Source: Jannaschia aquimarina (GTDB taxonomy: Bacteria > Pseudomonadota > Alphaproteobacteria > Rhodobacterales > Rhodobacteraceae). Taken from it: a stretch of DNA of 64,000 nt. This document shows positions 7,605 through 20,918 of the stretch, one piece after another. The DNA lies in assembly GCF_000877395.1 (NCBI RefSeq), contig NZ_JYFE01000017.1, positions 1 through 64,000 on the forward strand, given 5' to 3'. Each line of letters begins with the position of its first letter. Within the stretch, counting starts at the first letter, position 1. The position numbers and the translations under genes are program-made. Under the pieces are notes generated by a model. That model did no database searches and was not told the origin of the DNA. It worked only from the letters and a program-made list of their open reading frames with translations.

Positions 7605-8282
7605 ATGAGCAGGGATATCGGTGCCATGGTCGGATTGCCCTTGCGCGATCTGGCGCGGGGCCTGTCCGCCTTCACGCCAATCCGCGGCGTGGGCGCGGCG
7701 GGATTGCCGGCGCCGTTGCGCGAAGCGCTGCAACTCGTCTCTGGCGTCCTGCCCGACTCGCACCCTGAACGCGTCCCGCTTGAAGGTGTGGACGCGGCGT
7801 CCCTCGCGGCCGCGTCGGATTTTCTGTCGGTCGACGGCCCATCCGATCGCATGGAGGAGGCGTTCGTCCGGGTGCTTGCGTCGGCCATGCAGATGGCGCT
7901 CGACCAACTCGACGGTCCGGCCATTCCCCTCAGCGAGACCATCGCCACGATGCGCCTCCATTCGGGACCCGTCGCTGCGGGCGTTTCGGCAGAGCGGCGC
8001 GCGGCGCGGATCCTGCTGGACCTCTACCGGGCGCGCGCCTTCGGCCCGATGCCTGGTCTGCCGCTGCCGACCGATCCGGCGCAGGATCGTGCCGTGCGGC
8101 TGGCCGCCTTTGCCGCCTTCGCATGGCTGTTGACCAACCGAGAGGATGTCGTGTCCGAGGAACGCCTCGTCCTGGAGCTGTCGGTTGCGCTTTCGGTAAG
8201 CCTCGAGGCGGAAGTGTTGGCCCGCTTCGATGATCCGGACACCTTGGCCGAGATGCTGCGCTCGGTTTCCGCGAAGCTCTAG
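7605..8282 (+). CDS. Uncharacterised 225-residue protein
   Basis: The protein starts MSRDIGAMVGLPLRDLARGL at the ATG at 7605, preceded by GGGTGGAG at 7593-7600; the frame runs further upstream but without a better site. It is Ala/Leu-rich and probably all-helical, with no signal peptide, no clear membrane span and no motif that I recognise. It lies 74 bases after urtE and seven before the next gene, so it may be co-transcribed with urt or with the two genes that follow. Confidence 0.65.
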   Translation: MSRDIGAMVGLPLRDLARGLSAFTPIRGVGAAGLPAPLREALQLVSGVLPDSHPERVPLEGVDAASLAAASDFLSVDGPSDRMEEAFVRVLASAMQMALDQLDGPAIPLSETIATMRLHSGPVAAGVSAERRAARILLDLYRARAFGPMPGLPLPTDPAQDRAVRLAAFAAFAWLLTNREDVVSEERLVLELSVALSVSLEAEVLARFDDPDTLAEMLRSVSAKL

Positions 8283-8289
8283 CCGGGTC

Positions 8290-8916
8290 ATGCCGAAACT
8301 CGCCGCAACGTCGCCCCGGCCAATCCGAAAAGCCGCGCAGAGCCTGCGCTGGTTCGTGCGTGCGTTTGAAGACCAGGCGGCCCGCATTAGCGAGGAAACG
8401 GGGGTGGCCTATCAGGCCGATCACACAGATCTTGCGCGCGTCTTCGCCGAATGGCGCAAGGCGTTCGATGCGCAGAAGCCCCGCGACGCGACAGATTACC
8501 CGGCCTATGTCGGCTTTGCGGCCGGGCTGGTGCTGCGCACGCTTCTGCAGGTGAAGCCTGTTCAGGTGACGGGACTGCCCGAAGGGGCCGACACGACGAA
8601 CCCGGCCTATTACTGGCCCGAAGGCTATCTCTATGTCGTCTTCTGCCTCAACGTTCGTGGCCTCGTCCTGGAGACCGATTTCGACGGTCATCAGACCCCG
8701 CGGACGGACCTCGATGATGTTCGGACGTGGTGGAGTTTTCGGGAAAACGTGGAGGAGGACAGCGCCCTGGCGATCGCCTTTCTAGAGCATTTCGCCGGCG
8801 AGGACGCGCATTGGGAGACGCCGGAGATCTTCCATCCGGATCGGACGGCCCGGATCGCGGGACGGTTCTATGCTCCGAACCTGCATCCGCTGAACGGGAC
8901 GGTCGAGGATGCGTGA
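8290..8916 (+). CDS. Uncharacterised 208-residue protein
   Basis: The frame is open from 8230, but the ATG at 8290 is the first that does not overlap the preceding gene. The protein has a basic N-terminus and a centre rich in aromatic residues (NPAYYWPEGYLYVVFCLN, DVRTWWSF), and an acidic stretch ENVEEDS. There is no signal peptide. I do not recognise the family. It is tightly placed between the 7605 gene and ispD (24 bases), suggesting one transcript. Confidence 0.65.
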   Translation: MPKLAATSPRPIRKAAQSLRWFVRAFEDQAARISEETGVAYQADHTDLARVFAEWRKAFDAQKPRDATDYPAYVGFAAGLVLRTLLQVKPVQVTGLPEGADTTNPAYYWPEGYLYVVFCLNVRGLVLETDFDGHQTPRTDLDDVRTWWSFRENVEEDSALAIAFLEHFAGEDAHWETPEIFHPDRTARIAGRFYAPNLHPLNGTVEDA

Positions 8917-8940: not shown

Positions 8941-9651
8941 ATGAGCGTCGCTGCAATCCTCGTCGCTGCCGGGCGCGGGCGCCGCATGTCTCGCGGGACG
9001 CCCAAGCAGTACCTGCCCGTCGCGGGGATCCCGATCCTGCGCCATACGATCGAGACCTTTCTCGGCCATCCCTCGATCGGGACGGTCGCGGTCGTGATCC
9101 ATATGGATGACCTCCCTCTCTACCGGCAGGCGGTCGCGGGGCTGACGGATGCCGGTCTTCTCGATCCCATCGCGGGTGGGGACAGCCGGGCGGCCTCCGT
9201 GCGGTGCGGCCTCGAAGCGCTTTCCGAGCGAAAACCGGAAAAGGTGCTGATCCACGACGCGGCGCGGCCCTTTTGCCCGCATGAGGTCATAGGCGCAGTG
9301 ATCGAGGGTCTGGATCGCGCCGATGGCGCCTGCGCGGCGCTGCCCGTCGTGGATGCCCTGTGGCGGACCGAAGGAGGACGGGCCACGGCGTCCGTCCCCC
9401 GTGAAGGACTTTGGAGAGCCCAGACCCCGCAGGGCTTTCGCTTCGACCGCATCGTCGAGGCGCATCGGGCCTGTCGGGATCCTTTGGCGGCGGATGACGT
9501 GGCGGTGGCTCGGGCGGCGGCTCTGGACATCGTTCTGGTCCCCGGCTGCGAGAGCAACTTCAAGATCACCACGCCGGCGGACCTCGCGCGTGCCGAAGAG
9601 ATCGCCGCCCGCGACCTGGTCGAACTCAGCGTGTCGGGGTCGTCCGGATGA
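8941..9651 (+). CDS. ispD: 2-C-methyl-D-erythritol 4-phosphate cytidylyltransferase, stand-alone IspD type
   Basis: The 236-residue protein has the IspD nucleotide-binding start (AAILVAAGRGRRM, residues 4-16), PKQYLPVAG at 21-29, HDAARPF, LWRAQTPQGF and the C-terminal NFKITTPADL. IspD joins CTP and MEP to give CDP-methylerythritol in isoprenoid synthesis. Many alphaproteobacteria carry IspD fused to IspF; here no IspF domain follows, and the last 26 bases overlap the 3' end of the convergent kinase gene. Its neighbourhood (DRL-type enzyme, sugar kinase, importer) raises the possibility that this is a second, pathway-specific copy. A cytidylyltransferase for another polyol phosphate cannot be excluded. 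Confidence 0.85.
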   Translation: MSVAAILVAAGRGRRMSRGTPKQYLPVAGIPILRHTIETFLGHPSIGTVAVVIHMDDLPLYRQAVAGLTDAGLLDPIAGGDSRAASVRCGLEALSERKPEKVLIHDAARPFCPHEVIGAVIEGLDRADGACAALPVVDALWRTEGGRATASVPREGLWRAQTPQGFRFDRIVEAHRACRDPLAADDVAVARAAALDIVLVPGCESNFKITTPADLARAEEIAARDLVELSVSGSSG

Positions 9652-10570
9652 AGTCGAGGGTCCGCTCCAGATCGACGACGCCCGCCTGAGACCCGAGACC
9701 CGTCGCGTTCTGTGCGGATGCGGCTTGCCCCAGCTTCACGCAATCCTCGGGCGGTTTGCCCAGATGCAGACCGGTGGCGAAGCCGGCATTGAAGCAATCG
9801 CCGCACCCGCAGGTGCACACGACGTCGATTGCGAAAGCCGGCACGTCGAAGGCACGGCCCTGCGCGTCGCGATACATGGCACCCTGCGCGCCCATCGTCA
9901 GGATCACCGCGCCCGCGCCCTGATCCAGCAGAAAGCGTGCGATCTCCTCGAAATCCGTCAGGCCTGAAAGGGCCATCGCCTCCTCTTCGGAGGGCATGAA
10001 GTAGTCCGTATGCGGCAGCAGGGGCGCGACCAGCTTCATGTCGTCGGCGGTCGCGGCGAAGACGTCCAAGGTCGTAATCACGCCGCGGGACTTGGCTTCG
10101 GCGAACAGTTCGACCGATCGTCCCTTGTCCATCGCGTCCATCAGTCCCACGCCGCCGATATGCAGGATCGACGTGTCCAGCACGCTCTCCATCGCGGTGT
10201 CGTCCACGAAGAACCCTGCCGTCGCGCCGCGCTTGTGCAGGGCGGGCCTCGCGCCGTCGGGGCGCGTCGTCACGATCGAGGACGAGGTCGCGAAGTCCTC
10301 GCAGGTCTGCATGTTGGCCGTGTCCACGCCGAAATCGCCCAGGCGGCGGATGACCCATTCGCCCATCAGGTCGGCGCCGACGCCGCCCACGGCCCGCACC
10401 TTCAGGCCATGCTTCGCCGCGACGATCGCCGCGCTGCCCGCTGCGCCCGAAACGGCCAGAGCGAAGTCCTCGACGAAATACGTGTCGCCGCCGGGCGGGA
10501 TCTGCGTGACCGGACGGCAGAGCGCGTCGAAGGTATAGAACCCCACCGACGTGTAGTCGAACTTCGTCAT
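9626..10570 (-). CDS. PfkB-family sugar/polyol kinase
   Basis: The 314-residue protein belongs to the ribokinase/PfkB family: an N-terminal GGDTYFVEDFALAVSGAAG substrate-binding region and the catalytic C-terminal motif, here CTCGCGDCFNAGF, with the anion hole and catalytic Asp at GCGD (residues 255-258) where the usual form is GAGD. It should phosphorylate a small sugar or polyol with ATP. It is the last gene of a leftward operon with the importer at 10572-15025, one base after the ATPase gene, so its substrate is probably the imported compound. Given the DRL enzyme across the divergent promoter, methylerythritol or deoxyxylulose are candidates; this is inference. Confidence 0.88.
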   Translation of the reverse strand: MTKFDYTSVGFYTFDALCRPVTQIPPGGDTYFVEDFALAVSGAAGSAAIVAAKHGLKVRAVGGVGADLMGEWVIRRLGDFGVDTANMQTCEDFATSSSIVTTRPDGARPALHKRGATAGFFVDDTAMESVLDTSILHIGGVGLMDAMDKGRSVELFAEAKSRGVITTLDVFAATADDMKLVAPLLPHTDYFMPSEEEAMALSGLTDFEEIARFLLDQGAGAVILTMGAQGAMYRDAQGRAFDVPAFAIDVVCTCGCGDCFNAGFATGLHLGKPPEDCVKLGQAASAQNATGLGSQAGVVDLERTLDFIRTTPTR

Positions 10571-10571
10571 C

Positions 10572-11621
10572 TTATCTGATCCGTTCCCCGCTTTCCCCGG
10601 CGAACAGATAGAGGCGATCCATGTCGAAGGTCACCCCCTGCGGCGTGTCCAGGTCCGCGCGGAAGTCGCGGTCGGCCTTCACCTCGATCAGCTTGTCGCC
10701 TGCCTTCACGGTCAGGTACGTCATGTCGCCCGTCGGCTCGATTCCGTAGACATGCCCGGTGAGATGGGCCGCCCCTTCGGCGACGTGGCAATCTTCCGGG
10801 CGGACGCCCAAGGTGACGGCACGACCCTCCGCGTGAGACAGGCCCGGAACGGAGATGCCCGGCGCGCTGAAGGTGCCGCCCTCGACCCGACCTTCGATCA
10901 GGTTCATCGGCGGCGACCCGATGAACCCCGCGACGAACGTGTTCGCCGGATCGCGATAGATCTGGTCGGGCGTGCCGATCTGCTGGATCGACCCTCCGGC
11001 CATGACCACGATCCGGTCCGCCAGCGTCATCGCCTCGATCTGATCGTGCGTGACGTAAACTGTGGTGATCCTGAGCTGGCGTTGGAGGTGCTTGATCTGG
11101 ACCCGCATCGCCTGGCGCAGCTTGGCGTCGAGGTTCGAAAGCGGCTCGTCCATCAGAAAGACCTGCGGCTTGCGGACGATGGCACGGGCCAGCGCGGCCC
11201 GCTGGCGCTGGCCCCCCGACAAGGCGCCGGGCTTGCGGTCGAGATAATCCTCCAGTTCGACCATGGCGGCCGCCTCGCGGATCAGGCGGTCCTGATCGGC
11301 CTTGGGCACGTCGCGCATCCGCAGGGGAAAGCGAATGTTCTCGTAAATGGTCATGTTCGGATAGAGCGCGTAGCCCTGGAAGACCATCGCAACGTCGCGG
11401 TCGCGGGCGTCGACCTCGTTCATGACTTCGCCGTCCATGCGGATCTCGCCTTCCGACGGGTCTTCGAGCCCGGCGATCATCCGCATCGTGGTGGTCTTCC
11501 CGCAGCCGGACGGTCCCAGGAAGACGACCAGCTCCTCGTCGGCGATGTCCAGATCAACGTCACGCACGCCGACCACGGCGCCCCACCGCTTCTCCACGTT
11601 CTGCAATTCGATGCGTGCCAT
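10572..11621 (-). CDS. Carbohydrate ABC transporter ATPase (MalK/UgpC type)
   Basis: The 349-residue protein has Walker A GPSGCGKTT near residue 36, signature LSGGQRQRAALARA, Walker B VFLMDEPLSNLDA, the H-loop region VYVTHDQIEAM, and a C-terminal TOBE-type regulatory domain of about 110 residues (VTLGVRPEDCHV). This is the layout of ATPases energising carbohydrate importers of the CUT1 group. The start ATG at 11619-11621 gives MARIELQNVEKRWG. It is five bases from the permease gene ahead of it and one base from the kinase after it. Confidence 0.92.
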   Translation of the reverse strand: MARIELQNVEKRWGAVVGVRDVDLDIADEELVVFLGPSGCGKTTTMRMIAGLEDPSEGEIRMDGEVMNEVDARDRDVAMVFQGYALYPNMTIYENIRFPLRMRDVPKADQDRLIREAAAMVELEDYLDRKPGALSGGQRQRAALARAIVRKPQVFLMDEPLSNLDAKLRQAMRVQIKHLQRQLRITTVYVTHDQIEAMTLADRIVVMAGGSIQQIGTPDQIYRDPANTFVAGFIGSPPMNLIEGRVEGGTFSAPGISVPGLSHAEGRAVTLGVRPEDCHVAEGAAHLTGHVYGIEPTGDMTYLTVKAGDKLIEVKADRDFRADLDTPQGVTFDMDRLYLFAGESGERIR

Positions 11622-11626
11622 GTGCT

Positions 11627-12469
11627 TCAGCCCTTGACCGCGCCCATCGTCAGGCCCCGGCTCAGATGTTTCTGGATTGCCACGACCACCAGGAAGACCG
11701 GCAGGAAGGCGAGGAAGGCCACCAGAGCGATCGCGTTGTAGATCACCCCGTCCGAGCCTCCGGTGAAATTCGCCAGAGCCATTGACATCGTATAGGCGTC
11801 GGGGGTCGAGGCGATGAGCAGGGTGAACAGGAATTCGTTGATCGCGAAGATCATCGCGATGACGGCGGCCGTGATAATGCCGGGCAGGATCGCGGGGATG
11901 ATGATCTCCCACAGGATGCGCAGGTCGGAGGCGCCATCCGTGCGGGCCGCGTCTTCCAGCTCCTTCGGGATGTCCAGCATGTAGGACCGGATGATCCATG
12001 TGACAAAGCTGAGATTGATGGCCGCGTAGACCAGCATGAGCGCCCAGATCGTGTCGAGCAGGCCCAGATTGCGGAACAGGAAGAAGATCGGGATCGCCAC
12101 GATGGCGGGCGCCATCATCCGCGTGGACAGGATGTAGAACGCGATATCGTCGCGCCCGCGAAACTCGTAGCGGGCCAGCGCGTATGCCGCGGGGATCGCC
12201 AGCACGAGGTCGATCAGCACCGAGCCGAGGATCGCCAGCACCGAGTTGCGGAGGTACTGCCACATCGGCCAGTCCTCCCAGATCATGTGCCAGGCATCCA
12301 GGCTGAAGGTCGGCCAGTAGATCGGCTGGGGCGTGATGATCTCCGTTCGCGGACGCAGGCCGATGGAGAGGAACCACAGGACGGGAACCAGACAGAACAG
12401 CGCCCACCCCCCCAGGATCAGGTAGCGGACCAGAAGGTTCTCGCCCTTCTTTCTGCGGACCGAAGCCAT
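11627..12469 (-). CDS. Carbohydrate ABC transporter permease (MalG type)
   Basis: The 280-residue inner-membrane protein has six predicted spans, a long periplasmic loop after the first, and the EAA motif ELEDAARTDGASDLRILW, which contacts the ATPase. The C-terminus LSRGLTMGAVKG is typical of MalG-like permeases. It pairs with the permease at 12473-13411, whose stop is three bases away. Confidence 0.92.
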   Translation of the reverse strand: MASVRRKKGENLLVRYLILGGWALFCLVPVLWFLSIGLRPRTEIITPQPIYWPTFSLDAWHMIWEDWPMWQYLRNSVLAILGSVLIDLVLAIPAAYALARYEFRGRDDIAFYILSTRMMAPAIVAIPIFFLFRNLGLLDTIWALMLVYAAINLSFVTWIIRSYMLDIPKELEDAARTDGASDLRILWEIIIPAILPGIITAAVIAMIFAINEFLFTLLIASTPDAYTMSMALANFTGGSDGVIYNAIALVAFLAFLPVFLVVVAIQKHLSRGLTMGAVKG

Positions 12470-12472
12470 GGC

Positions 12473-13411
12473 TCAGTTCCTCGCCGACACGAAGGCGCGC
12501 TTCACGACGACCTGCGCGATGATGATGGTCAGGATCAGCATCACAACCGAAGCCGCCGAAGCATAGCCGAAATTGAAGAACTTGAAGCCCGTCCGGTAGA
12601 TGAAATAGCTGATCGTCTCCGTGCCGAAGGCCGGGCCGCCCTTGGTGATGATGAAGACGTTGGTGAACATCGTCGTGATGTCGATCCCCCGCAGGATCAG
12701 CGCGACGGCGATCACCGGCTTCATGAGCGGCAGGGAGATGTTCCAGAAGATCGAGAACCACGAAGCCCCGTCGAGACGCGCGGCCTCCTCGACCTCTTCG
12801 TCCTGACCCTGAAGGGCTGCGACGAAGATGATGAAGAGGAAGGGGGTCCATTGCCAGACATCCGCCAGGATCAGCAGGGCGCGGCTGCCCCAGACCGACG
12901 ACTGGATCGCGAGGTTCCCGTCGATCAGTCCGATCCGCTGCAAGAGATCCGAGAAGACGCGGGCATCGAGAAACGACAGCTTGTAGATGAAGGCCACCGC
13001 CGACGGCATGAACAGCATCGGGACCAGAAAGACGATCCGCCAGCCCTGCACCCAAGGGTCGCGGTAGGCGTAGAAGGCGAGGATCAGCGCAAGCACGCAT
13101 TGCAGCGTCAGGCTGATCGAGCCAATCACGAACGTATTCCAGAGCGCGCCCCAGAATTGATAGTCGCCCATCAGGCGGACGTAATTGTCGAACCCGACCG
13201 GTTGCCAGGGGCCGAACTTCACGGCGTGAAAGCTCTGGATGATGGCGTAGATGCCGGGATAGAGCGTGATGCCCAGCAGGTAGATCACCGCGGGCGCGAC
13301 CAGCAGGTACGGGAACAGCGCCTTCATGCGGCGGGACCGACGGCGGCGGATCTGTGAGGCGGGCCCCGCGGCCGCTGCCGGTCCCACATCGCGCAGGGGG
13401 GTGTCCGTCAT
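12473..13411 (-). CDS. Carbohydrate ABC transporter permease (MalF type)
   Basis: The 312-residue protein starts MTDTPLRDVG at 13411; the frame extends 15 codons upstream but those residues look non-coding. A basic segment (RRRRSRRMK) precedes the first of six membrane spans. The EAA loop is EVEEAARLDGASWFSIFW. It forms the translocation pore with the MalG-type partner. It follows the binding-protein gene by 66 bases. Confidence 0.92.
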   Translation of the reverse strand: MTDTPLRDVGPAAAAGPASQIRRRRSRRMKALFPYLLVAPAVIYLLGITLYPGIYAIIQSFHAVKFGPWQPVGFDNYVRLMGDYQFWGALWNTFVIGSISLTLQCVLALILAFYAYRDPWVQGWRIVFLVPMLFMPSAVAFIYKLSFLDARVFSDLLQRIGLIDGNLAIQSSVWGSRALLILADVWQWTPFLFIIFVAALQGQDEEVEEAARLDGASWFSIFWNISLPLMKPVIAVALILRGIDITTMFTNVFIITKGGPAFGTETISYFIYRTGFKFFNFGYASAASVVMLILTIIIAQVVVKRAFVSARN

Positions 13412-13477
13412 GCTCGTTCCCGGTGGTCGGCTGAAAGGGTATGGTCCCACGGACACGAGGCCCGTGAGACCATCATA

Positions 13478-15025
13478 TCAGAAGGGCAGGTCCTTGCCTT
13501 CTCCGACATAGAGGCCGGGCGCCGCCGCGGCATACTCGACCGGATCGTTGCCCGCGTAGAACCCGTTCTCGGACATGATCTGGCGCACGGCGGCGGCTGC
13601 GTTGTCCAGCGCCTCCTTCGCGGTGATCTGGCCGACGACGGCGCGGTTGATCTCGTTGCCGATGGCCTGCTCGATCGGGAAGGCGCCGGGCAGGCGCGGG
13701 CTGCACCAGGCATGATCGAGGCTGTCACCCCAGACCTTTGCCGGCTGGCTGACCTTCTGCAGTTCTTCGTTTGTCAGGACCGAGCGATAGCCGGGTGCCA
13801 CGCCGTTCGCATTGGCCTCGTTCATGGCCATGATCGACGCTGTCGTCAGGAAGCCCAGCATCAGGAACGCGCCTTCGGGGTTCTGCGCCGAGGCACTGAC
13901 GCAGGAGGTCGACCCGGCGATGTTAGGCGGTGCGAAGCGGCCGCCTTCGATCCGCGGCTCGTAGATCGTGACGAAATCGTCGACGATTTGGCTCTGGTCC
14001 GGGCGCATCGCCTGCGTGCCGCTATCCTGCCAGGAGATGTTGGTCGCCACCTGCCCGCCCAGCCACGCGGCGCGGTTCTCGGGCCAGCCGGCGCCGGCAT
14101 GGCCTTCGTTGGCGTTCTCGGTGAGGGCGAGGATGATCTCCAGGCCCTTCATGCCTTCCTCGCCGTTGAAGATCGGTTCCCAGTTCTCGTCGAACAGCAT
14201 CATGCCGGCCTGGGCGGCGATATGCTCCCAGGTGTAGGTCGACCAGAAGCCGGGCGCGGCCATCAGACCGACGCCCGCGACGCCCGGTTCGATCCGGTTC
14301 AGTTCCCGCGAAACGCGGATCAGTTCGTCGTAGCTCGGCACCGAGTTCACCCGGTCCACTTCGCCGCCCAGAAGCTGCTCCATGTAGCCCTTGCGGACAT
14401 GGACCATCTGGATGTCGCAATCGAAGGGGATGCCGTACATCCGGCCGTTGAAGAAGCCGTAGTTCAATCGGTACGTGTCGTAGAAGTCGTCGAGCGGCAG
14501 GCCCCACTTCTCGGCGAAGTCGTCGAGGGGGAACAGGAAGCCCGGTGCCGCGAAATCTCCCATCCATGGAGAGAAGAACTGCAATGCGTCGAAGCTCGCA
14601 TTGCCGGAGATGAACTCGGCCAGCGCCTTGTCGTAGAAGCTGTCATCCGGGATCGGAACCAGCTCGACCGTGATGCCCGAAAGCTGCTCGAAGGGGACTA
14701 GACCCTCTGCCGCGGACTCAGCGTCCGCCGCGCCGACCGCGAACCGGACCGACGTGCCGGCAAGCTCTTCGCGAACCCGCTCCCAGTCGACGGTGCGGAT
14801 CCAGTCCTTGTTCGGATCCCAGAGCGGCGCGTCGCTCATGTTGTAGAGCTGACGGTAGTCTTCGCGGACATAGCCGGGCACCGAGATACCCTCCAGCACA
14901 CTGGCCGGGTCGGGAAGGTGCGCGTCGGCTCGTGCGATGCGGGGCATTAGCAGGCCCGAGGACCCTGCCGCGCCGACTGCCGCGGTTGATGCGAGGAACC
15001 CCCTCCGGGATAAGCTTTTGGACAT
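13478..15025 (-). CDS. Carbohydrate ABC transporter substrate-binding protein, Tat-exported
   Basis: The 515-residue extracellular solute-binding protein starts at 15025, where GGAGGAAGGAA sits directly before ATG. Residues 6-12 (SRRGFLA) with the following hydrophobic run form a twin-arginine signal, so it is probably exported folded. The mature part is a large SBP_bac_1-type protein rich in aromatic and acidic residues (NYGFFNGRMYGIPFDCDIQ). Ligand specificity cannot be read from sequence. It is the first gene of the leftward importer-kinase operon and is divergent from the DRL operon. Confidence 0.9.
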   Translation of the reverse strand: MSKSLSRRGFLASTAAVGAAGSSGLLMPRIARADAHLPDPASVLEGISVPGYVREDYRQLYNMSDAPLWDPNKDWIRTVDWERVREELAGTSVRFAVGAADAESAAEGLVPFEQLSGITVELVPIPDDSFYDKALAEFISGNASFDALQFFSPWMGDFAAPGFLFPLDDFAEKWGLPLDDFYDTYRLNYGFFNGRMYGIPFDCDIQMVHVRKGYMEQLLGGEVDRVNSVPSYDELIRVSRELNRIEPGVAGVGLMAAPGFWSTYTWEHIAAQAGMMLFDENWEPIFNGEEGMKGLEIILALTENANEGHAGAGWPENRAAWLGGQVATNISWQDSGTQAMRPDQSQIVDDFVTIYEPRIEGGRFAPPNIAGSTSCVSASAQNPEGAFLMLGFLTTASIMAMNEANANGVAPGYRSVLTNEELQKVSQPAKVWGDSLDHAWCSPRLPGAFPIEQAIGNEINRAVVGQITAKEALDNAAAAVRQIMSENGFYAGNDPVEYAAAAPGLYVGEGKDLPF

Positions 15026-15284
15026 TTCCTTCCTCCCTGCTGTGTCGCCGCACAGTTGGCCCTTGCGCATCGCCTCCTCCGCGACCACAGGGGCAGAACA
15101 AAAGTTCTAAAAAGTATCGTTATGTTCGGGCAGCCGTTCCTGTCAACGTTATTCTTGTTATGACTACCAGCACAAGTTCGCGGCCTAGCCTGACCACCGC
15201 CCGGCTTGCCGCCCTGAACATATAGATTGACAGATAAGCAGATGTTCAAATAACCCCTCTGCACGGCCACCCGGAGATCTCGAC
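15026..15284. promoter_or_regulatory. Divergent control region between importer-kinase operon and DRL-aco operon
   Basis: This 259-base region is visibly A+T-richer than its surroundings, as expected for a two-way promoter. It contains several GAAC/GTTC half sites: a short dyad AGAAC-AAAA-GTTCT at 15095-15108, GTTC at about 15124 and 15136, and a long dyad at 15215-15248. The last gene of the rightward operon encodes a SorC-type regulator, so this is its likeliest binding region. Confidence 0.55.
15215..15248. promoter_or_regulatory. Candidate SorC-type operator overlapping a TTGACA -35 box
   Basis: TGAACAT (15215-15221) and ATGTTCA (15242-15248) are a perfect 7-bp inverted repeat 20 bases apart. 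A consensus TTGACA lies between them at 15227-15232, and AATAAC/ATAACC follows at a 16-17-base spacing as a weak -10. The DRL gene starts 37 bases after the repeat. SorC/DeoR-like sugar regulators are known to bind repeats with TGAAC/GTTCA arms, so binding here would block or control the DRL promoter. The assignment is inferred. Confidence 0.45.
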
Positions 15285-16622
15285 ATGGCGAGCAACGTTG
15301 AACTGACAGGTTTGGCCCGCGACCTGTCCGCCCGCGCGGCCGACGGACGTCCCGTACGAATTGGCCTCGTCGGGTCGGGGGAGATGGGAACCGATATCGT
15401 CACCCGTGCCGCGCTGATGGACGGCGTCGATGTCGCGGCGGTCGCCGATCTCGATCCGGCAGCCGCGCATCGGGCCGTCGAGATCGCTTACGGTGAGAAG
15501 GGGCATTCGAACGACGCCGCGACGAGCGTCGCGCTCGACAGCGTGATCGAGGGAGGGCGGACCGCGGTCGCTCCCGATGCGCAGGCGATTCTGGAAAGCG
15601 GGTTGATCGACGTGGTGATCGACGCGACCGGCGTGCCTTCCGTCGGCGCCGAGATCGGCCTGGCGGCGATGGAGCGCGGCAAGCACCTCGTGATGATGAA
15701 CGTCGAAGCCGACGTCACCATCGGCGCCTATCTCCGGGCCGAGGCAGAGCGTCTGGGCGTCGTCTATTCCCTTGGCGCAGGGGACGAACCGTCCTCTTGC
15801 ATGGAGCTGATCGAGTTCGCCAGCGCCATGGGCCATCGGATTGTCTGCGCGGGCAAAGGCAAGAACAATCCTCTTAACGTCGAGGCGACCCCGGACGCCT
15901 ATATGGACGAAGCCGCGCGCCGGAACATGAACGCCCGGATGTTGGTCGAATTCGTGGATGGTTCGAAGACGATGGTCGAGATGGCCGCCATCGCCAACGC
16001 GACCGGCCTGATCCCCGACAAGCCCGGTATGCACGGCCCTGCCGCGGGACCGAAGGATCTGGCAAGCACCCTGATCCCGAAAGCCGACGGCGGCGTCCTG
16101 AGCGCGGCCGGACGGGTCGATTTCTCCGTCGGACAAGGGCTCGCGCCCGGCGTCTTCGTCGTGATCGAGGCTCAGCACCCCCGCATTCACGAGCGGATGA
16201 CCGACCTCAAGATGGGCGACGGCCCCTATTTCAGCCTGATCCGCCCGTATCATTTGACGTCGCTTGAGGTGCCCCTGACCTGCGCGCGCGCGGTCCTCTA
16301 CGGCAAGGCGGACATGGTGCCCCTGCGCGAGCCGGTCGCGGAGGTCTGTGCCGTCGCCAAGCGCGACCTCTCGCCCGGAGAGACGCTGGATCAGATCGGC
16401 GAGTATTGCTACCGCGCCTGGATCATGGAGGCGGCCGAGGCACGGCAGGCCGAGGCGATCCCCTGCGGTATCCTGACCGGATGCGCGGTCACGGCTCCGA
16501 TCCGCAAGGGGGACCTGATCACCCGGCGCAACGCCTCGGTTCCGGCCGACTCGAAGATCGCCGCCCTGCGTGCCCGTCAGGACGAGATGGTGTTCGGCAA
16601 GCGGGAGCCCGCCCATGCCTGA
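15285..16622 (+). CDS. drl: DXR-like (DRL-family) oxidoreductase with SAF domain
   Basis: The 445-residue protein has a homoserine-dehydrogenase-like NAD(P) fold (GLVGSGEMGTDIV, residues 27-39; LVMMNVEADVTIG near 135; GAGDEPSSCMELIEF near 164) and a C-terminal SAF-type domain (about 350-440). The whole matches, from memory, the DRL enzymes first shown in Brucella abortus, which convert 1-deoxy-D-xylulose 5-phosphate to 2-C-methyl-D-erythritol 4-phosphate in place of classical DXR. Automated annotation often calls them SAF-domain or homoserine-dehydrogenase-like proteins. GGAG eight bases upstream supports the ATG at 15285. Its 3' end overlaps the E1 alpha gene by eight bases, tying it to an acyloin-cleaving complex. 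Substrate and direction in this organism are inferred. Confidence 0.78.
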   Translation: MASNVELTGLARDLSARAADGRPVRIGLVGSGEMGTDIVTRAALMDGVDVAAVADLDPAAAHRAVEIAYGEKGHSNDAATSVALDSVIEGGRTAVAPDAQAILESGLIDVVIDATGVPSVGAEIGLAAMERGKHLVMMNVEADVTIGAYLRAEAERLGVVYSLGAGDEPSSCMELIEFASAMGHRIVCAGKGKNNPLNVEATPDAYMDEAARRNMNARMLVEFVDGSKTMVEMAAIANATGLIPDKPGMHGPAAGPKDLASTLIPKADGGVLSAAGRVDFSVGQGLAPGVFVVIEAQHPRIHERMTDLKMGDGPYFSLIRPYHLTSLEVPLTCARAVLYGKADMVPLREPVAEVCAVAKRDLSPGETLDQIGEYCYRAWIMEAAEARQAEAIPCGILTGCAVTAPIRKGDLITRRNASVPADSKIAALRARQDEMVFGKREPAHA

Positions 16623-17625
16623 CACCGCCCAGGCGAACGTCCCCTTCGCCATTGCGACCTACGATCCCGACCGACTGCGCGCGGCGCTGCGGAAGATGTA
16701 CCTGATCCGCAAGTTCGAGGAAGGGGCGGAAGACAGCTACACCCGCGGCCTGATCCACGGGACCATGCATCTGAGCATAGGGCAGGAAGCCAGCGCCGTC
16801 GCCTCCTGCATGGCACTTACGGATGACGACAAGATCACGTCGACGCATCGCGGCCACGGGCATTGCGTAGCAAAGGGCGCGGATGTCGCTCGCATGTTCG
16901 CAGAGTTCTTCGGCAAGGAAGAAGGCTATTGCCGCGGCCGCGGCGGTTCCATGCACATCGCGGACGTCGAAAAGGGGAATCTGGGCGCCAACGGTATCGT
17001 GGGCGGTGGGCTTCCCATCGCGGTGGGCGCGGCGCTCTCTGCCAAGCGGTTGGGGACCGGCGCGGTCACCGTCTGCTTTTTCGGGGATGGCGCCAACAAC
17101 GAGGGGGCGTTTCACGAGGCGCTGAACATGGCCGCCATCTGGAAGCTGCCCGTCGTCTTCGTTTGCGAGAACAACAAGTACGGGATGTCCACGTCCACAG
17201 AGCGGTCCACCGCTGTCGCGAACATCGCCGATCGCGCGGCCGCCTATGCGATGCCGGGGGTCACGGTGGACGGGAACGACTTCTCGGAGGTCGCCGAAGC
17301 GGTCGAGACCGCGGTAGCCCGCGCGCGACGCGGCGAGGGGCCGTCCCTGATCGAGAACGTGACCTACCGCTGGCGCGGCCATTCGAAGTCGGATCGCAAT
17401 CGCTACCGCACGAAGGACGAGATCGCCGGCTGGGTGAAGAAGGATCCGATCGCGCGGATGGGGGCCATGCTGGTGACGCATGGCATCATGGCCGAAGAGG
17501 ATATCGCCGCCATGGAAACGGACGTGGACGACGAGATCGCCGAGGCGATCGAGTTCGCCCGCAGCGGAACCGATCCCGATCCGGCCGAGGTGACACGGGA
17601 CGTGCATACGGATCGCGCCGCATGA
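16615..17625 (+). CDS. acoA: Thiamine-dependent dehydrogenase E1 alpha subunit, acetoin dehydrogenase type
   Basis: The 336-residue protein has the AcoA/PdhA signature: [30 protein letters not shown], and the thiamine-diphosphate motif beginning GDGANNEG and ending in CENN. It starts at the ATG at 16615, overlapping the DRL stop by eight bases, and its stop overlaps the next start (ATGA). With E1 beta it should cleave a 2-oxo acid or an acyloin and pass the acyl group to lipoate. AcoA-type E1 acts on acetoin; DXP has the same CH3-CO-CHOH core, which makes it a candidate substrate in this operon. Confidence 0.9.
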
Positions 17626-18632
17626 ACGCCGCTGCCGGGGTCAGGACGCGCGAGATGTCCTATGCCGAGGCCATCCGCGACGCGATGGACATCGCGCTGA
17701 CCGAGGATGAGCGTGTCGTCCTGATGGGCGAGGATATCGGCGTCTATGGCGGCGCCTTTCAGGTCACCGGCGACCTTGTGGAGCGTCATGGCCCCGATCG
17801 GGTGATCGACACGCCGATCTCCGAGTTGGGCGGGGCCGGTGTGGCCGTCGGGGCTGCCATGACGGGCCTGCGCCCGATACTGGAATTCCAGTTCTCCGAC
17901 TTCGCGACCCTCGCGATGGAACAGATCGTCAATCAGGCCGCCAAGGTGCGCTACATGCTGGGTGGGGCGGTTTCCGTTCCTGTCGTCATGCGCTTTCCCG
18001 CCGGATCCGGCACCGGAGCGGCGGCTCAACATTCCCAAAGCCTCGAAGCGTGGCTCGGGCACGTGCCCGGCCTGAAGGTCGTCCAGCCGACGACGCCGGA
18101 AGATGCGAAGGGAATGCTGCTGGCCGCGCTCGACGATCCGGACCCGGTGATGATCTTCGAGCACAAGCTGCTCTACAAGCTGAAGGGGCAGGTGCCGGAG
18201 GGGCGGTATACGACGCCGCTCGACAAGGCGGTCGTCCGGCGTGCGGGTGATGCGGTCACGGTCGTGGCGTCCGGCATCATGGTTCACAAGGCGCTCGAAG
18301 CGGCGGGTCAACTGGCTGAAGATGGCATCGAGGCCGAGGTCATCGACTTGCGCTCGGTTCGCCCCATCGACCGCGAGACGATCCTTGAAAGCGTGCGCAA
18401 GACCGGACGGCTGCTTTGCGTCTACGAGGCGGTCAAGACGCTGGGCATCGGCGCCGAGATCAGCGCAATGGTCGCCGAAAGCGATGCGTTCGATTTCCTG
18501 GACGCGCCGATCGTCCGGCTGGGCGGGGCGGAATGCCCGATCCCTTACAATCCGGATCTGGAAAAGGCGGCAGTGCCCCAGATCGCCGACATCCTGGATG
18601 CCGCCCGCGCGTTGGCGACGGGCCGGCGCTGA
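17622..18632 (+). CDS. acoB: Thiamine-dependent dehydrogenase E1 beta subunit, acetoin dehydrogenase type
   Basis: The 336-residue protein shows the E1 beta transketolase-like pyrimidine domain ([55 protein letters not shown]) and the C-terminal transketolase domain ([15 protein letters not shown]). It starts with an ATGA overlap on the E1 alpha stop. It forms the alpha2beta2 decarboxylase/acyloin-cleaving component with 16615-17625. It ends three bases before the E2 gene. Confidence 0.9.
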
Positions 18633-18635
18633 CCC

Positions 18636-19931
18636 ATGCCGGTCGAGGTCATCATGCCCAAGGTCGACATGGATATGGCCGAGGGCACCATCGCGAAGTG
18701 GCACGTATCCGAGGGCGAGAAGGTCGCGCGCGGGGACCCGCTCTTCGATATCGAGACCGACAAGGCCGCGATGGAGGTCGAAGCCCCCGGCGAAGGCACA
18801 TTGCATCATGTGCTCGCCGGCGAGGGCGATACCGTCGCCATCGGATCGGCCGTCGCGTTTCTGTATTCCGAGGGCGAGGAGGTCGGCGATCCCCCAGCCG
18901 GTGCAAAGCCGGCCATGGGGTCCGAAGAGCCGACAGGGCGACGTGGCGAGACACGTTCCGACACGCAGCCGGTGCAAGAGGAACCCGCCGCCCCGCCGGA
19001 TGAGAAACGGAAGATCGAAGCCGGGCCCCGCGCGACGCCCCTTGCCCGCCGCTTGGCCCGCGAAGCCGATCTGCGGCTGAGCGACATCCCCGGCACCGGC
19101 CCCCGGGGACGGATCCAGGGCGAGGATGTGCGCGAGGCTGTCCGCGCGACCGACATGCGCGCCAGCCCAGACCCGGAACCTAAGGGGCGTGCAGGAGCGC
19201 AGACCGGTCCGCCCCTTGTCCTGATCCACGGCTTCCTGTCCGATGCGCAAAGCTGGGGGCCACTGGAAAAGGCTTTCGGATCGGGACGCCCGATCCACAA
19301 GCTGGAATTACCGGGCCACGGGCGCGCAACGCGCAAGCCGCCCGCCGATTTCTCCGCGCTGGTTTCCCACATGCGCCGCGGACTGGATGAGTTGAACCTC
19401 GAAGCAATGCATCTTGTCGGCCATTCGCTCGGCGGGGCCGTCGCATTGGCCCTTGCGGATACCCGGCCGCGCCGTGTGGCGAGCCTGACGCTGATCGCTC
19501 CCGCCGGGCTTGGGCCGCAAATCGACGGAGCGGCGCTTGATGGCATGTTGCGTGCGACACGTGCCGAGAGCTTGGCGCCCTGGCTCAAACGGCTCGTCGC
19601 CGATCCCGACCGGATCAGTTGGAACTATGTGCAGGCCGTTCTTGCCGGCCGATCCGACGAGGACTTGCGCGACGCGCAACGCCGCATGGCCGAGACGCTG
19701 TTCGCCGACGGAACGCAATGCTTCGATCTGCAGGCCGCGCTGGGCCGTGTCGAGATGCCGACCCGTATCATCTGGGGCCGCCGGGACGGCATCATCCCGT
19801 GGTCCCACGCCCTGTCCGCCCCGGGCCGCGTGTCGCTGAACCTGTTCGACGATCTGGGACACATGCCCCAGATCGAGGCCCCCGAAGCGGTTGCCGACCT
19901 GTTGGCTGCGTCGGTAGGATTGGCGCCGTAA
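18636..19931 (+). CDS. acoC: E2-like protein: lipoyl domain, E3-binding domain and alpha/beta hydrolase
   Basis: The 431-residue protein has an N-terminal lipoyl domain with the modified lysine in FDIETDKAAMEVE (about residue 43), a Pro/Glu-rich linker, a peripheral subunit-binding domain (ATPLARRLAREADLRLSDIP, about 130-165), and then an alpha/beta-hydrolase domain (LVLIHGFLSD; nucleophile elbow GHSLGG). It lacks the usual chloramphenicol-acetyltransferase-like E2 domain. This layout is known in AcoC proteins of acetoin catabolism. No E3 gene is nearby, so a dihydrolipoamide dehydrogenase from elsewhere must serve. Confidence 0.88.
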   Translation: MPVEVIMPKVDMDMAEGTIAKWHVSEGEKVARGDPLFDIETDKAAMEVEAPGEGTLHHVLAGEGDTVAIGSAVAFLYSEGEEVGDPPAGAKPAMGSEEPTGRRGETRSDTQPVQEEPAAPPDEKRKIEAGPRATPLARRLAREADLRLSDIPGTGPRGRIQGEDVREAVRATDMRASPDPEPKGRAGAQTGPPLVLIHGFLSDAQSWGPLEKAFGSGRPIHKLELPGHGRATRKPPADFSALVSHMRRGLDELNLEAMHLVGHSLGGAVALALADTRPRRVASLTLIAPAGLGPQIDGAALDGMLRATRAESLAPWLKRLVADPDRISWNYVQAVLAGRSDEDLRDAQRRMAETLFADGTQCFDLQAALGRVEMPTRIIWGRRDGIIPWSHALSAPGRVSLNLFDDLGHMPQIEAPEAVADLLAASVGLAP

Positions 19932-19949
19932 GCCGCAGGAGGGCCCCGC

Positions 19950-20918
19950 GTGAAAGAGCAACGGACCGCCTCCCAACCCGACGAATCCCAGCGCGATCTG
20001 CGCATCCGGGCCGCGTGGATCTACTACGTCGAGGGCCACACCCAGAGCGAGACCGCGCGCATGATGGGGCTCAACCGGATCGCGGTTACACGTCTCCTCT
20101 CGGAGGCGCGGCGCCGGGGCGAGGTGACCATCACCATCGCGTCCGACCTGACCGAGACCGTCACGCTGGAGCGTGACCTGGAAGAGCGGTTCGGACTGGA
20201 AAAGGCGATCGTGGCCCCGTTCTCGGATGCCGGTGGCGATCCGACCAACGCGATCGCGGCAATCGCCGGTCCCTACATCTCGTCGATCCTGCGGCCCAAC
20301 ATGACGCTGGGCGTGGGGTGGGGGCGGACGTTGCATGCGACGCTATCCCATCTGCGCCCGCGTGCGATCGAGGGATTGCGGGTCGTCTCCCTTCTGGGTG
20401 GCATCGCCGAGGCCCGCCGCTTCAACCCGGCCGAATTCGCGTGGCAGTTCGCCGAGGCTTTCGACGCCGAGGGCTTCCTCGTCCCCGCCCCCGCCTTGGT
20501 CGACAGCCCGGCGACGCGACACGCTCTGCTGGAGCATTGCGGGATCGAACAGGTCTTCCAACAGGCCGAGTCCAGCGACGTCGCGTTGATCAGCTGCGGT
20601 GGCATCGACGGGCTGACGACGTCGTACCGGATCGGGCACATCCCGGAGCCCGCGCGGCGATCCCTCAAGGAGGCCGGTGCCATCGGTGACATTCTCTACA
20701 ATTTCGTCGATGCGTCCGGTGCCCTGGTCGAGCACGGGATCAACGAACGTTGCGTGTCCATGCCGCTGGAGCGGCTCCAACGTATCCCCAGCCGGATCCT
20801 CATGTCGGGTGGCGTCGAGAAGGACGTGATCCTGCGCGCCGCGCTGGCATCGGTGCGCCCGACGACAATCATCACGGACGAGGCGTCGGCCCGTCGCCTT
20901 CTGGACGGGTCACCCTGA
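19950..20918 (+). CDS. SorC-family sugar-responsive transcriptional regulator
   Basis: The 322-residue protein starts at GTG 19950 with CAGGAGGG upstream. An N-terminal helix-turn-helix (QSETARMMGLNRIAVTRLLSEA, quoted in part) is followed by the sugar-binding domain typical of SorC regulators (LRPNMTLGVGWGRTLHATL; VSLLGGIAEAR). EryD of erythritol catabolism in Brucella and rhizobia is of this type. These proteins usually bind a phosphorylated sugar as effector. It closes the DRL-aco operon and probably controls both divergent transcripts through 15026-15284. Confidence 0.88.
   Translation: MKEQRTASQPDESQRDLRIRAAWIYYVEGHTQSETARMMGLNRIAVTRLLSEARRRGEVTITIASDLTETVTLERDLEERFGLEKAIVAPFSDAGGDPTNAIAAIAGPYISSILRPNMTLGVGWGRTLHATLSHLRPRAIEGLRVVSLLGGIAEARRFNPAEFAWQFAEAFDAEGFLVPAPALVDSPATRHALLEHCGIEQVFQQAESSDVALISCGGIDGLTTSYRIGHIPEPARRSLKEAGAIGDILYNFVDASGALVEHGINERCVSMPLERLQRIPSRILMSGGVEKDVILRAALASVRPTTIITDEASARRLLDGSP

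Follow-up and report, generated by a model that had tools for sequence, protein, structure and literature searches.

The drl gene cluster and its proposed role

What does a DXR-II family enzyme (DRL), known from isoprenoid synthesis, do between a sugar importer and an acetoin-dehydrogenase-type complex? The question is raised by two divergent gene runs in a 64,000-nucleotide (nt) stretch of the 4.1 Mb genome of Jannaschia aquimarina (G000), i.e., positions 1 to 64,000 of contig NZ_JYFE01000017.1 (C17), hereafter the window. The minus-strand run (9626-15025) encodes a solute-binding protein, two permeases, a MalK-type ATPase, and a PfkB kinase. The plus-strand run (15285-20918) encodes DRL, E1α, E1β, E2, and a SorC regulator, with overlaps of 8 nt between DRL and E1α and 4 nt between E1α and E1β. 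A preliminary description of this DNA had claimed these families, overlaps, and order; all the genes were present as claimed, with open frames.

In these alphaproteobacteria, DRL and the E1/E2 complex almost certainly act jointly in the catabolism of a sugar alcohol. The two operons as a whole probably serve to break down 2-C-methyl-D-erythritol (ME). The pathway that we infer, with good confidence, leads from ME through 2-C-methyl-D-erythritol 4-phosphate (MEP) and 1-deoxy-D-xylulose 5-phosphate (DXP) to acetyl-CoA and glyceraldehyde 3-phosphate. ME would be imported and converted to MEP by a kinase, i.e., PfkB here, or elsewhere by a phosphotransferase system (PTS). DRL would oxidize MEP to DXP, reversing the isoprenoid step, and the E1/E2 complex would split DXP. 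This cleavage may pull the unfavourable oxidation of MEP forward.

Identity of DRL and the second DXR of the genome

The drl gene (15285-16622, plus strand) was assigned to the DXR-II family of oxidoreductases, here with the proposed reaction from MEP to DXP. Its product matched the Pfam domain DRL_cat (PF21135) with 226 bits and Brucella DRL (3upl/3upy) with 616 bits over residues 1-441. The residues K191, K193, T229, H250, and R320 are all present, and they are invariant across 19 DXR-II proteins. According to PMC3847144, K191, K193, and T229 anchor the inhibitor or substrate, H250 is specific to DXR-II, and R320 lies at the dimer interface. The same paper describes DLO proteins without these DXR-II residues, and DXR-II proteins that complement the loss of DXR. 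A DLO-type oxidoreductase was considered for DRL and rejected, the values being at least 217 bits and 49-80% identity versus at most 209 bits and at most 37% identity in the 40 lower-scoring (DLO) loci that were compared.

A second DXR, which the preliminary description had proposed to look for, was found in the genome. It is a DXR-I encoded on contig C41 (127 bits), and the window DRL is thus not the sole DXR. Because this ordinary DXR-I is kept elsewhere, the clustered DRL would be spare, and it is probably not the biosynthetic DXR. With the checked residues intact, it appears to be a functional DXR-II that has another task.

Conservation of the linkage between drl and the E1α gene

PF21135 searches were made in 295 genomes of the family and 385 genomes of the class. 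DXR-II-type proteins, i.e., of at least 217 bits, were found in 19 genomes. The E1α gene (e1a) followed drl in 11 of them; in seven it did not, and one locus was cut by a contig end. A wider scan of the genome collection gave at least 563 confirmed relatives, from which the best 80 named loci were kept. These are the closest matches to the window DRL, and this sample is therefore biased towards the window, more so than the family and class samples. In 73 of the best 80, e1a lies directly behind drl. The E1β gene (e1b) was found in 71 of these 73 linked loci and the E2 gene (e2) in 65; genes were called by our own codon-score script with approximate starts, so that an e1b or e2 that was not found may have escaped the script. 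Of the remaining seven loci, six are non-linked and one (L124) is truncated at the edge of its contig. None of the 40 DLO loci, which served as a control, had an e1a homologue less than 1.5 kb away.

In the plasmid collection, 33 records carried a close e1a, which by coordinates was directly beside a drl in 32. The pAtCFBP7129b plasmid of Agrobacterium holds the importer, PfkB, DRL, E1α, E1β, E2, lpdA, and lipA genes collinear on one strand, with the kinase gene directly before drl. Plasmid pRM41A of Sinorhizobium meliloti Rm41 carries the same gene set in two divergent runs, and Defluviimonas denitrificans also has an intact cluster. A drl was found in 47 plasmid records, and the 15 without a close e1a were five from Phyllobacterium, one from Pararhizobium, and nine from Firmicutes or archaea. 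One Phyllobacterium copy stands with sugar ATP-binding cassette (ABC) genes and without the E1/E2 complex. A chance neighbourhood is ruled out by the linkage in the best 80, the plasmid e1a places, and the DLO controls. The preliminary description had suggested a genome search for drl linked to acoABC-type genes, importer, and kinase, and this arrangement does recur in genomes that keep DXR-I.

The one exception among the plasmid e1a places is pHM3 of Rhizobium sp. SSA_523 (L257). It carries e1a, e1b, e2, and sorC with no drl found within 19 kb, together with a galactitol-type PTS EIIC, EI-HPr, and both of the orphan genes c31 and c6 described below. Such a drl-less locus is as expected if a deoxyketose enters directly as DXP. 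It may be a direct deoxyxylulose route into the same E1/E2 complex.

Distribution of linked and non-linked DXR-II genes

The association of linkage with DXR-I was first noticed in the 19 family and class genomes and was then tested in 49 named ones from the best 80. For the latter, 50 genomes were selected and L190 was left out; 30 others had been dropped so that close relatives and short contigs would weigh less. DXR-I was found in 11 of the 19 genomes, and drl was linked to e1a in all 11. The eight without DXR-I comprise seven with a non-linked drl and one cut locus. Among the 49, DXR-I was found in 27, where all DXR-II copies are linked. The remaining 22 hold a linked DXR-II plus one or more non-linked copies (16 genomes), only a linked one (2), only a non-linked one (3), or a cut locus (1). 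A linked DRL thus occurs in 45 of the named genomes, and 43 of these have another DXR, i.e., DXR-I in 27 and a second, non-linked DXR-II in 16. The linked drl of G709, which belongs to these 16, is read in two pieces and may contain a frameshift.

When both sets were merged, a non-linked DXR-II was found in 0/37 genomes with DXR-I versus 26/28 without it (Fisher p 4e-16, which ignores relatedness). In this count the cut locus (G227, the same as G683) was left out, and G010, which is also G679, was counted once. G485 (L079) was scored as non-linked from BLAST, as the script called no drl there.

A tree was made from 111 of 115 rows after identical ones were removed; it does not contain the window protein, which was not among the loci that the set was built from. 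The linkage label needs 11 changes on it, and at least seven are forced by well-supported branches. For the contrast, 80 rows of known status were used, and L076 (cut) and L235 were dropped. In seven independent pairs of linked and non-linked copies, the absence of another DXR candidate followed the non-linked state in 6.9 on average and never the opposite (p 0.016). Several non-linked copies nest inside linked clades, with long branches that leave some placements unsure. Because of this nesting, the tree suggests that a catabolic enzyme was recruited for biosynthesis more than once.

These counts bear on a biosynthetic explanation, in which DRL is a redundant or condition-specific DXR for isoprenoids and its neighbours serve an unrelated acyloin or sugar. 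The complementation of DXR loss in PMC3847144, the sole IspD gene of the genome beside the cluster, and the two genomes that hold a linked DRL with no DXR-I found are in its favour. On the other side, there are 39 genomes in which every DXR-II copy is linked, and 37 of them have DXR-I. In addition, the drl-e1a pair recurs through the best 80, the two genes overlap in the window, and one collinear run joins them to the importer and kinase. The biosynthetic explanation is therefore considered very unlikely.

Import by kinase or phosphotransferase system

The kinase of the window (9626-10570, minus strand; PF00294, 132.6 bits) is of the PfkB/ribokinase family and is proposed to be a methylerythritol kinase. 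The importer genes on the same strand encode a MalK/UgpC-type ABC ATPase (10572-11621; PF00005 and PF17912; NF008653 with 431.8 bits, just below the cut-off of 432) and two CUT1-type ABC permeases (11627-12469 and 12473-13411, both PF00528, the start of the second being set at an ATG). The last member is a periplasmic solute-binding protein (13478-15025; PF01547, 96 bits), whose start is the ATG preceding an SRRGFL Tat-like signal.

Import modules were counted in 51 linked loci of the best 80 that have flanks of 9 kb or more in both directions. A window-type PfkB kinase, i.e., of at least 63% identity, was found in 18, of which 17 also carry a CUT1 binding protein. A glucitol/sorbitol PTS was found in 19, and its parts were EII-GUT, EIIBC-GUT, EIIA, GutM, and EI-HPr by Pfam on representatives. 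No locus of the 51 carries both the window-type kinase and the glucitol PTS (p 3e-5, not corrected for relatedness). The module of ABC importer and kinase is interchangeable with the glucitol PTS. A PTS delivers a phosphorylated polyol, and therefore its product here would be MEP, the partner metabolite of DRL. The sorbitol PTS in Salmonella is said to transport 2-C-methyl-D-erythritol, as Testa et al. reportedly described in 2004.

In eight of the 51 loci only a distant kinase (50-63% identity) was found, often with RbsC-type ABC, GlpD-like, and alcohol dehydrogenase (ADH)-like genes. Many linked drl clusters (L129, L132, L144, L172, L187, and others) have by their side such a second module, i.e., a distant PfkB kinase, a GlpD-like FAD enzyme, a Zn-ADH, an RbsC-type ABC, and SorC. 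It may feed other stereoisomers into the pathway.

More distant DRLs also adjoin such modules. Terrarubrum, Pseudoroseomonas, and Paracoccus versutus have a DRL of 52-54% identity with both the glucitol PTS and E1/E2. In Firmicutes, where the evidence consists of plasmid records, a Priestia DRL (42%) stands with E1β, E2, lpdA, a major facilitator superfamily (MFS) transporter, and an FGGY kinase, and the DRLs of Listeria innocua, Ligilactobacillus, and Enterococcus (34-38%) adjoin a glucitol PTS. The Enterococcus and Ligilactobacillus lineages use the mevalonate route, and the PTS linkage in them is a further point against the biosynthetic explanation. On a Ligilactobacillus salivarius plasmid (L242), DRL and the glucitol PTS are accompanied by fructose-6-phosphate aldolase and transketolase, with no E1/E2 in the stretch. 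These two enzymes may be an alternative way to split DXP.

Another explanation is the salvage of deoxyxylulose. The importer would bring in 1-deoxy-D-xylulose, the kinase would make DXP, DRL would convert it to MEP for isoprenoids, and E1/E2 would burn the excess. It would suit the position of ispD beside the cluster here and in Oceaniradius, where it is the sole IspD gene in each, and the Rhizobium plasmid with E1/E2, PTS EIIC, and no drl found. However, DXR-I or another DXR-II already exists in most linked genomes, the glucitol PTS in the place of the kinase is a polyol system, and DRL would be unnecessary for the catabolism. Salvage is given slightly less chance than the biosynthetic explanation. 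The preliminary description had named either ME or deoxyxylulose as the nutrient; the ME part fits better, because DRL is not needed for deoxyxylulose, and the other part fits less well.

The E1/E2 complex and the SorC regulator

The E1 subunits are encoded on the plus strand by the E1α gene (16615-17625; PF00676, 311 bits), for a thiamine diphosphate (ThDP)-dependent protein of the proposed acyloin-cleaving complex, and the E1β gene (17622-18632; PF02779 and PF02780). The E2 gene follows on this strand (18636-19931; NF011457, 373.2 bits, cut-off 307), and its product is of the AcoC type, with lipoyl, E3-binding, and α/β-hydrolase fold parts. No E3 gene was found among the cluster genes scanned, the rest of the genome not being searched for E3. 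In other cluster copies lpdA adjoins E2, and in the window genome E3 would presumably come from elsewhere.

DXP is a methyl acyloin phosphate, and therefore an acetoin-dehydrogenase-type complex would give acetyl-CoA and glyceraldehyde 3-phosphate from it. That a PDH-type E1 can act on this skeleton has a precedent in PMC3424233. There, purified pyruvate dehydrogenase (PDH) joins pyruvate and glyceraldehyde to deoxyxylulose, and DXP is formed in vivo by aceE mutants. The output of wild-type PDH is described there as too small to replace DXS. Given its neighbours, i.e., DRL and either a sugar kinase or a PTS, the complex more likely acts on a phosphorylated acyloin than on acetoin.

The E1α and E1β pair differs clearly from the other E1 genes of the same genome, since its nearest paralogues, on contigs C20 and C60, are only 43-44% identical. 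The C20 paralogue has a lipoyl-domain match between E1α and E1β and was read as PDH. A loop of the window E1α corresponds in the alignment to "RYHGHSMSD" of human PDH, which we take to be the phosphorylation loop at the active-site entrance. Its basic residues are K258, R261, and R263, kept in 89/92, 92/92, and 90/92 of the E1α rows, respectively. The 92 rows include duplicate loci and four plasmid copies, one of which (L257) is without drl. At these positions the PDH of the same genome has M, P, and K. The basic loop would fit a phosphorylated substrate, and K258, R261, and R263 may bind the 5-phosphate of DXP.

The SorC-family sugar(-phosphate)-sensing regulator gene closes the plus-strand run (19950-20918; PF04198 Sugar-bind, 173 bits), and its product may sense a phosphate of the pathway. 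The gap between the solute-binding protein gene and drl (15026-15284) was taken as the divergent promoter region. An operator palindrome between the two operons was rejected, as no inverted repeat of at least 8 nt was found there.

Weighing of the proposed pathway

Several points weigh against the ME pathway. The DXR equilibrium favours MEP. The 73 of 80 linked loci do not describe the wider family, because the best 80 are nearest to the window DRL. Two of the DXR-I calls among the 19 genomes (G157 and G162) are fragments. Two of the 49 named genomes (G705 and G710) hold only a linked DRL, and because no DXR-I was found in them, a linked DRL may also serve biosynthesis. On the tree, the absence of DXR-I followed the non-linked state in 3.1 pairs with no difference in 3.9 (p 0.25), because genomes with both linked and non-linked copies lack DXR-I. 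The contrast becomes significant only if a second DXR-II is scored as a further DXR, and is partly definitional. As to the import modules, 2 of the 19 PTS loci also carry a distant kinase (50-63% identity), 6 of the 51 full-flank loci have none of the three scored input modules, and the separation of PTS loci from kinase loci reflects lineage in part. E1/E2 was not found in the stretches read for Listeria innocua, Ligilactobacillus, and Enterococcus, and around a Natronococcus homologue both PTS and E1/E2 are missing from the stretch examined. Lastly, the C60 paralogue has R, K, and P in the E1α loop, so the first two basic positions are not unique.

The architecture could also serve another methyl-branched or 1-deoxy polyol, e.g., 2-C-methyl-threitol or another diastereomer, which would be phosphorylated, oxidized by DRL to the phosphate of a methyl acyloin, and then cleaved to acetyl-CoA and an aldose phosphate. 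Here the substrate is drawn from homology and the Salmonella PTS report, and some loci carry extra modules, i.e., a GlpD-like protein, a Zn-ADH, and a second kinase. Related substrates may exist, because the DRLs of 52-54% identity likewise occur with E1/E2 and the glucitol PTS. Against another polyol, all the checked DXR-II residues are kept. Moreover, close relatives must handle DXP and MEP, because several of the non-linked DRLs nested in linked clades come from genomes where no other DXR was found. Another polyol is thus unlikely, though a less remote prospect than biosynthesis or salvage. The reversal of the DXP and MEP steps for ME catabolism, as proposed in the preliminary description, is supported by the second DXR, the recurrent linkage, and the glucitol PTS that replaces importer and kinase.

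A broader reading, held slightly above even chances, is that DXR-II was catabolic at its root. Alphaproteobacteria and Firmicutes would eat ME, many of them cleaving DXP, and DXR-II would have been recruited repeatedly as the sole biosynthetic DXR after loss of DXR-I. Import would be by ABC, PTS, or MFS systems, and further 2-methyltetrols, of plant origin or from aerosol formed from isoprene, may be used as well.

Relation to known systems

By sequence, the window DRL belongs to the same family as Brucella DRL (3upl), with the checked residues intact. The known role of DRL is the conversion of DXP to MEP for isoprenoid synthesis, whereas the window DRL is proposed to act from MEP to DXP in a catabolic operon of a genome with DXR-I. 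AcoABC cleaves an acyloin to acetyl-CoA, and it shares E1α, E1β, and an E2 with lipoyl, E3-binding, and α/β-hydrolase parts with the window complex. Unlike AcoABC, the window complex has DRL and a sugar kinase as neighbours, or elsewhere DRL and a PTS, and its proposed substrate is the phosphorylated methyl acyloin DXP. The gut-type PTS of Salmonella, i.e., for sorbitol/glucitol, corresponds to the alternative import module of drl-e1-e2 clusters elsewhere, whereas the window has an ABC importer and PfkB kinase. We know of no catabolic route for ME in Salmonella.

Catabolism of autoinducer-2 (AI-2; Lsr) involves a SorC/LsrR-type regulator, ABC import, and phosphorylation, and it ends in acetyl-CoA and triose phosphate. 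The window cluster resembles it in the SorC-type regulator, ABC import, phosphorylation, and proposed end products, but the cleavage would be made by a ThDP complex, not by a thiolase as in Lsr. An Lsr operon is defined by LsrF, LsrG, and an LsrK-type FGGY kinase, and none of these was found among the 13 Pfam-scanned proteins, i.e., those of ispD, the ten cluster genes, and the two orphan genes. An erythritol (Ery) operon is defined by the FGGY kinase EryA and the GlpD-like dehydrogenase EryB. The window kinase is PfkB, and no DAO-family dehydrogenase was found among the same 13 proteins.

No description of ME catabolism by such a cluster was found in the open-licence literature, which is not proof of absence. 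As far as the relevant parts of a 2013 survey (PMC3847144) and a 2026 review (PMC13001223) go, the reason why DXR-II is scattered and redundant is left open. If true, the catabolic role would explain this scattered, seemingly redundant distribution. According to PMC11618991, 2-methylerythritol is a known marker of isoprene-derived aerosol, its stereochemistry not being given. The pathway, if true, would be a bacterial sink for it. It would also provide a DXP-cleaving ThDP complex, useful for engineering of the MEP pathway in either direction.

Neighbouring genes and distant relatives

The stand-alone ispD (8941-9651, plus strand; TIGR00453, 204 bits, cut-off 181) is convergent with the kinase gene, with a 26 nt overlap. 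It is the sole full-length IspD match of the genome, and IspF is encoded alone on contig C2, with no IspD remnant better than E 0.85 beside it. The preliminary description had expected ispDF elsewhere, which did not hold for ispD. As a proven member of the pathway, ispD was rejected, because it is convergent and not co-transcribed. The adjacency is compatible with the diversion of some MEP to isoprenoids.

The called genes of 99 loci were compared, i.e., L062-L080 and L111-L190, where at least four places occur twice (L062/L115, L069/L125, L073/L117, L076/L124) and L080 is a DLO locus. An ispD was found in only two. Oceaniradius (L116:2190-2939) has a stand-alone ispD of 57% identity beside the cluster, the sole full IspD gene there, and L174 has a 410-aa ispD-containing gene (39%) about 8 kb downstream of drl. 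In 16 of 18 other genomes, the IspD match lies in an open frame of at least 385 aa, long enough for a fused IspDF.

Two orphan genes on the plus strand, c31 (7605-8282) and c6 (8290-8916), had no family over the cut-off in Pfam, NCBIfam, and PHROGs, and their AlphaFold models had no fold match in PDB at E≤0.001. A Doc-like topology was not used, as its matches were only at E≥3.6. The c31 model is all-helical and the c6 model mostly helical, both of good confidence, with pLDDT of 85.6 and 89.6, respectively. Both genes are companions of the cluster, with c31 homologues in 32/99 loci and c6 homologues in 48/99, one of the latter (L121) being doubtful.

Distant SAF-domain relatives of DRL in Persicobacter pPP3 (L259) and Deinococcus (H98-H101) adjoin or overlap rfbC annotations, and the Persicobacter one also stands with rfbG. 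These relatives might be reductoisomerases for branched nucleotide sugars.

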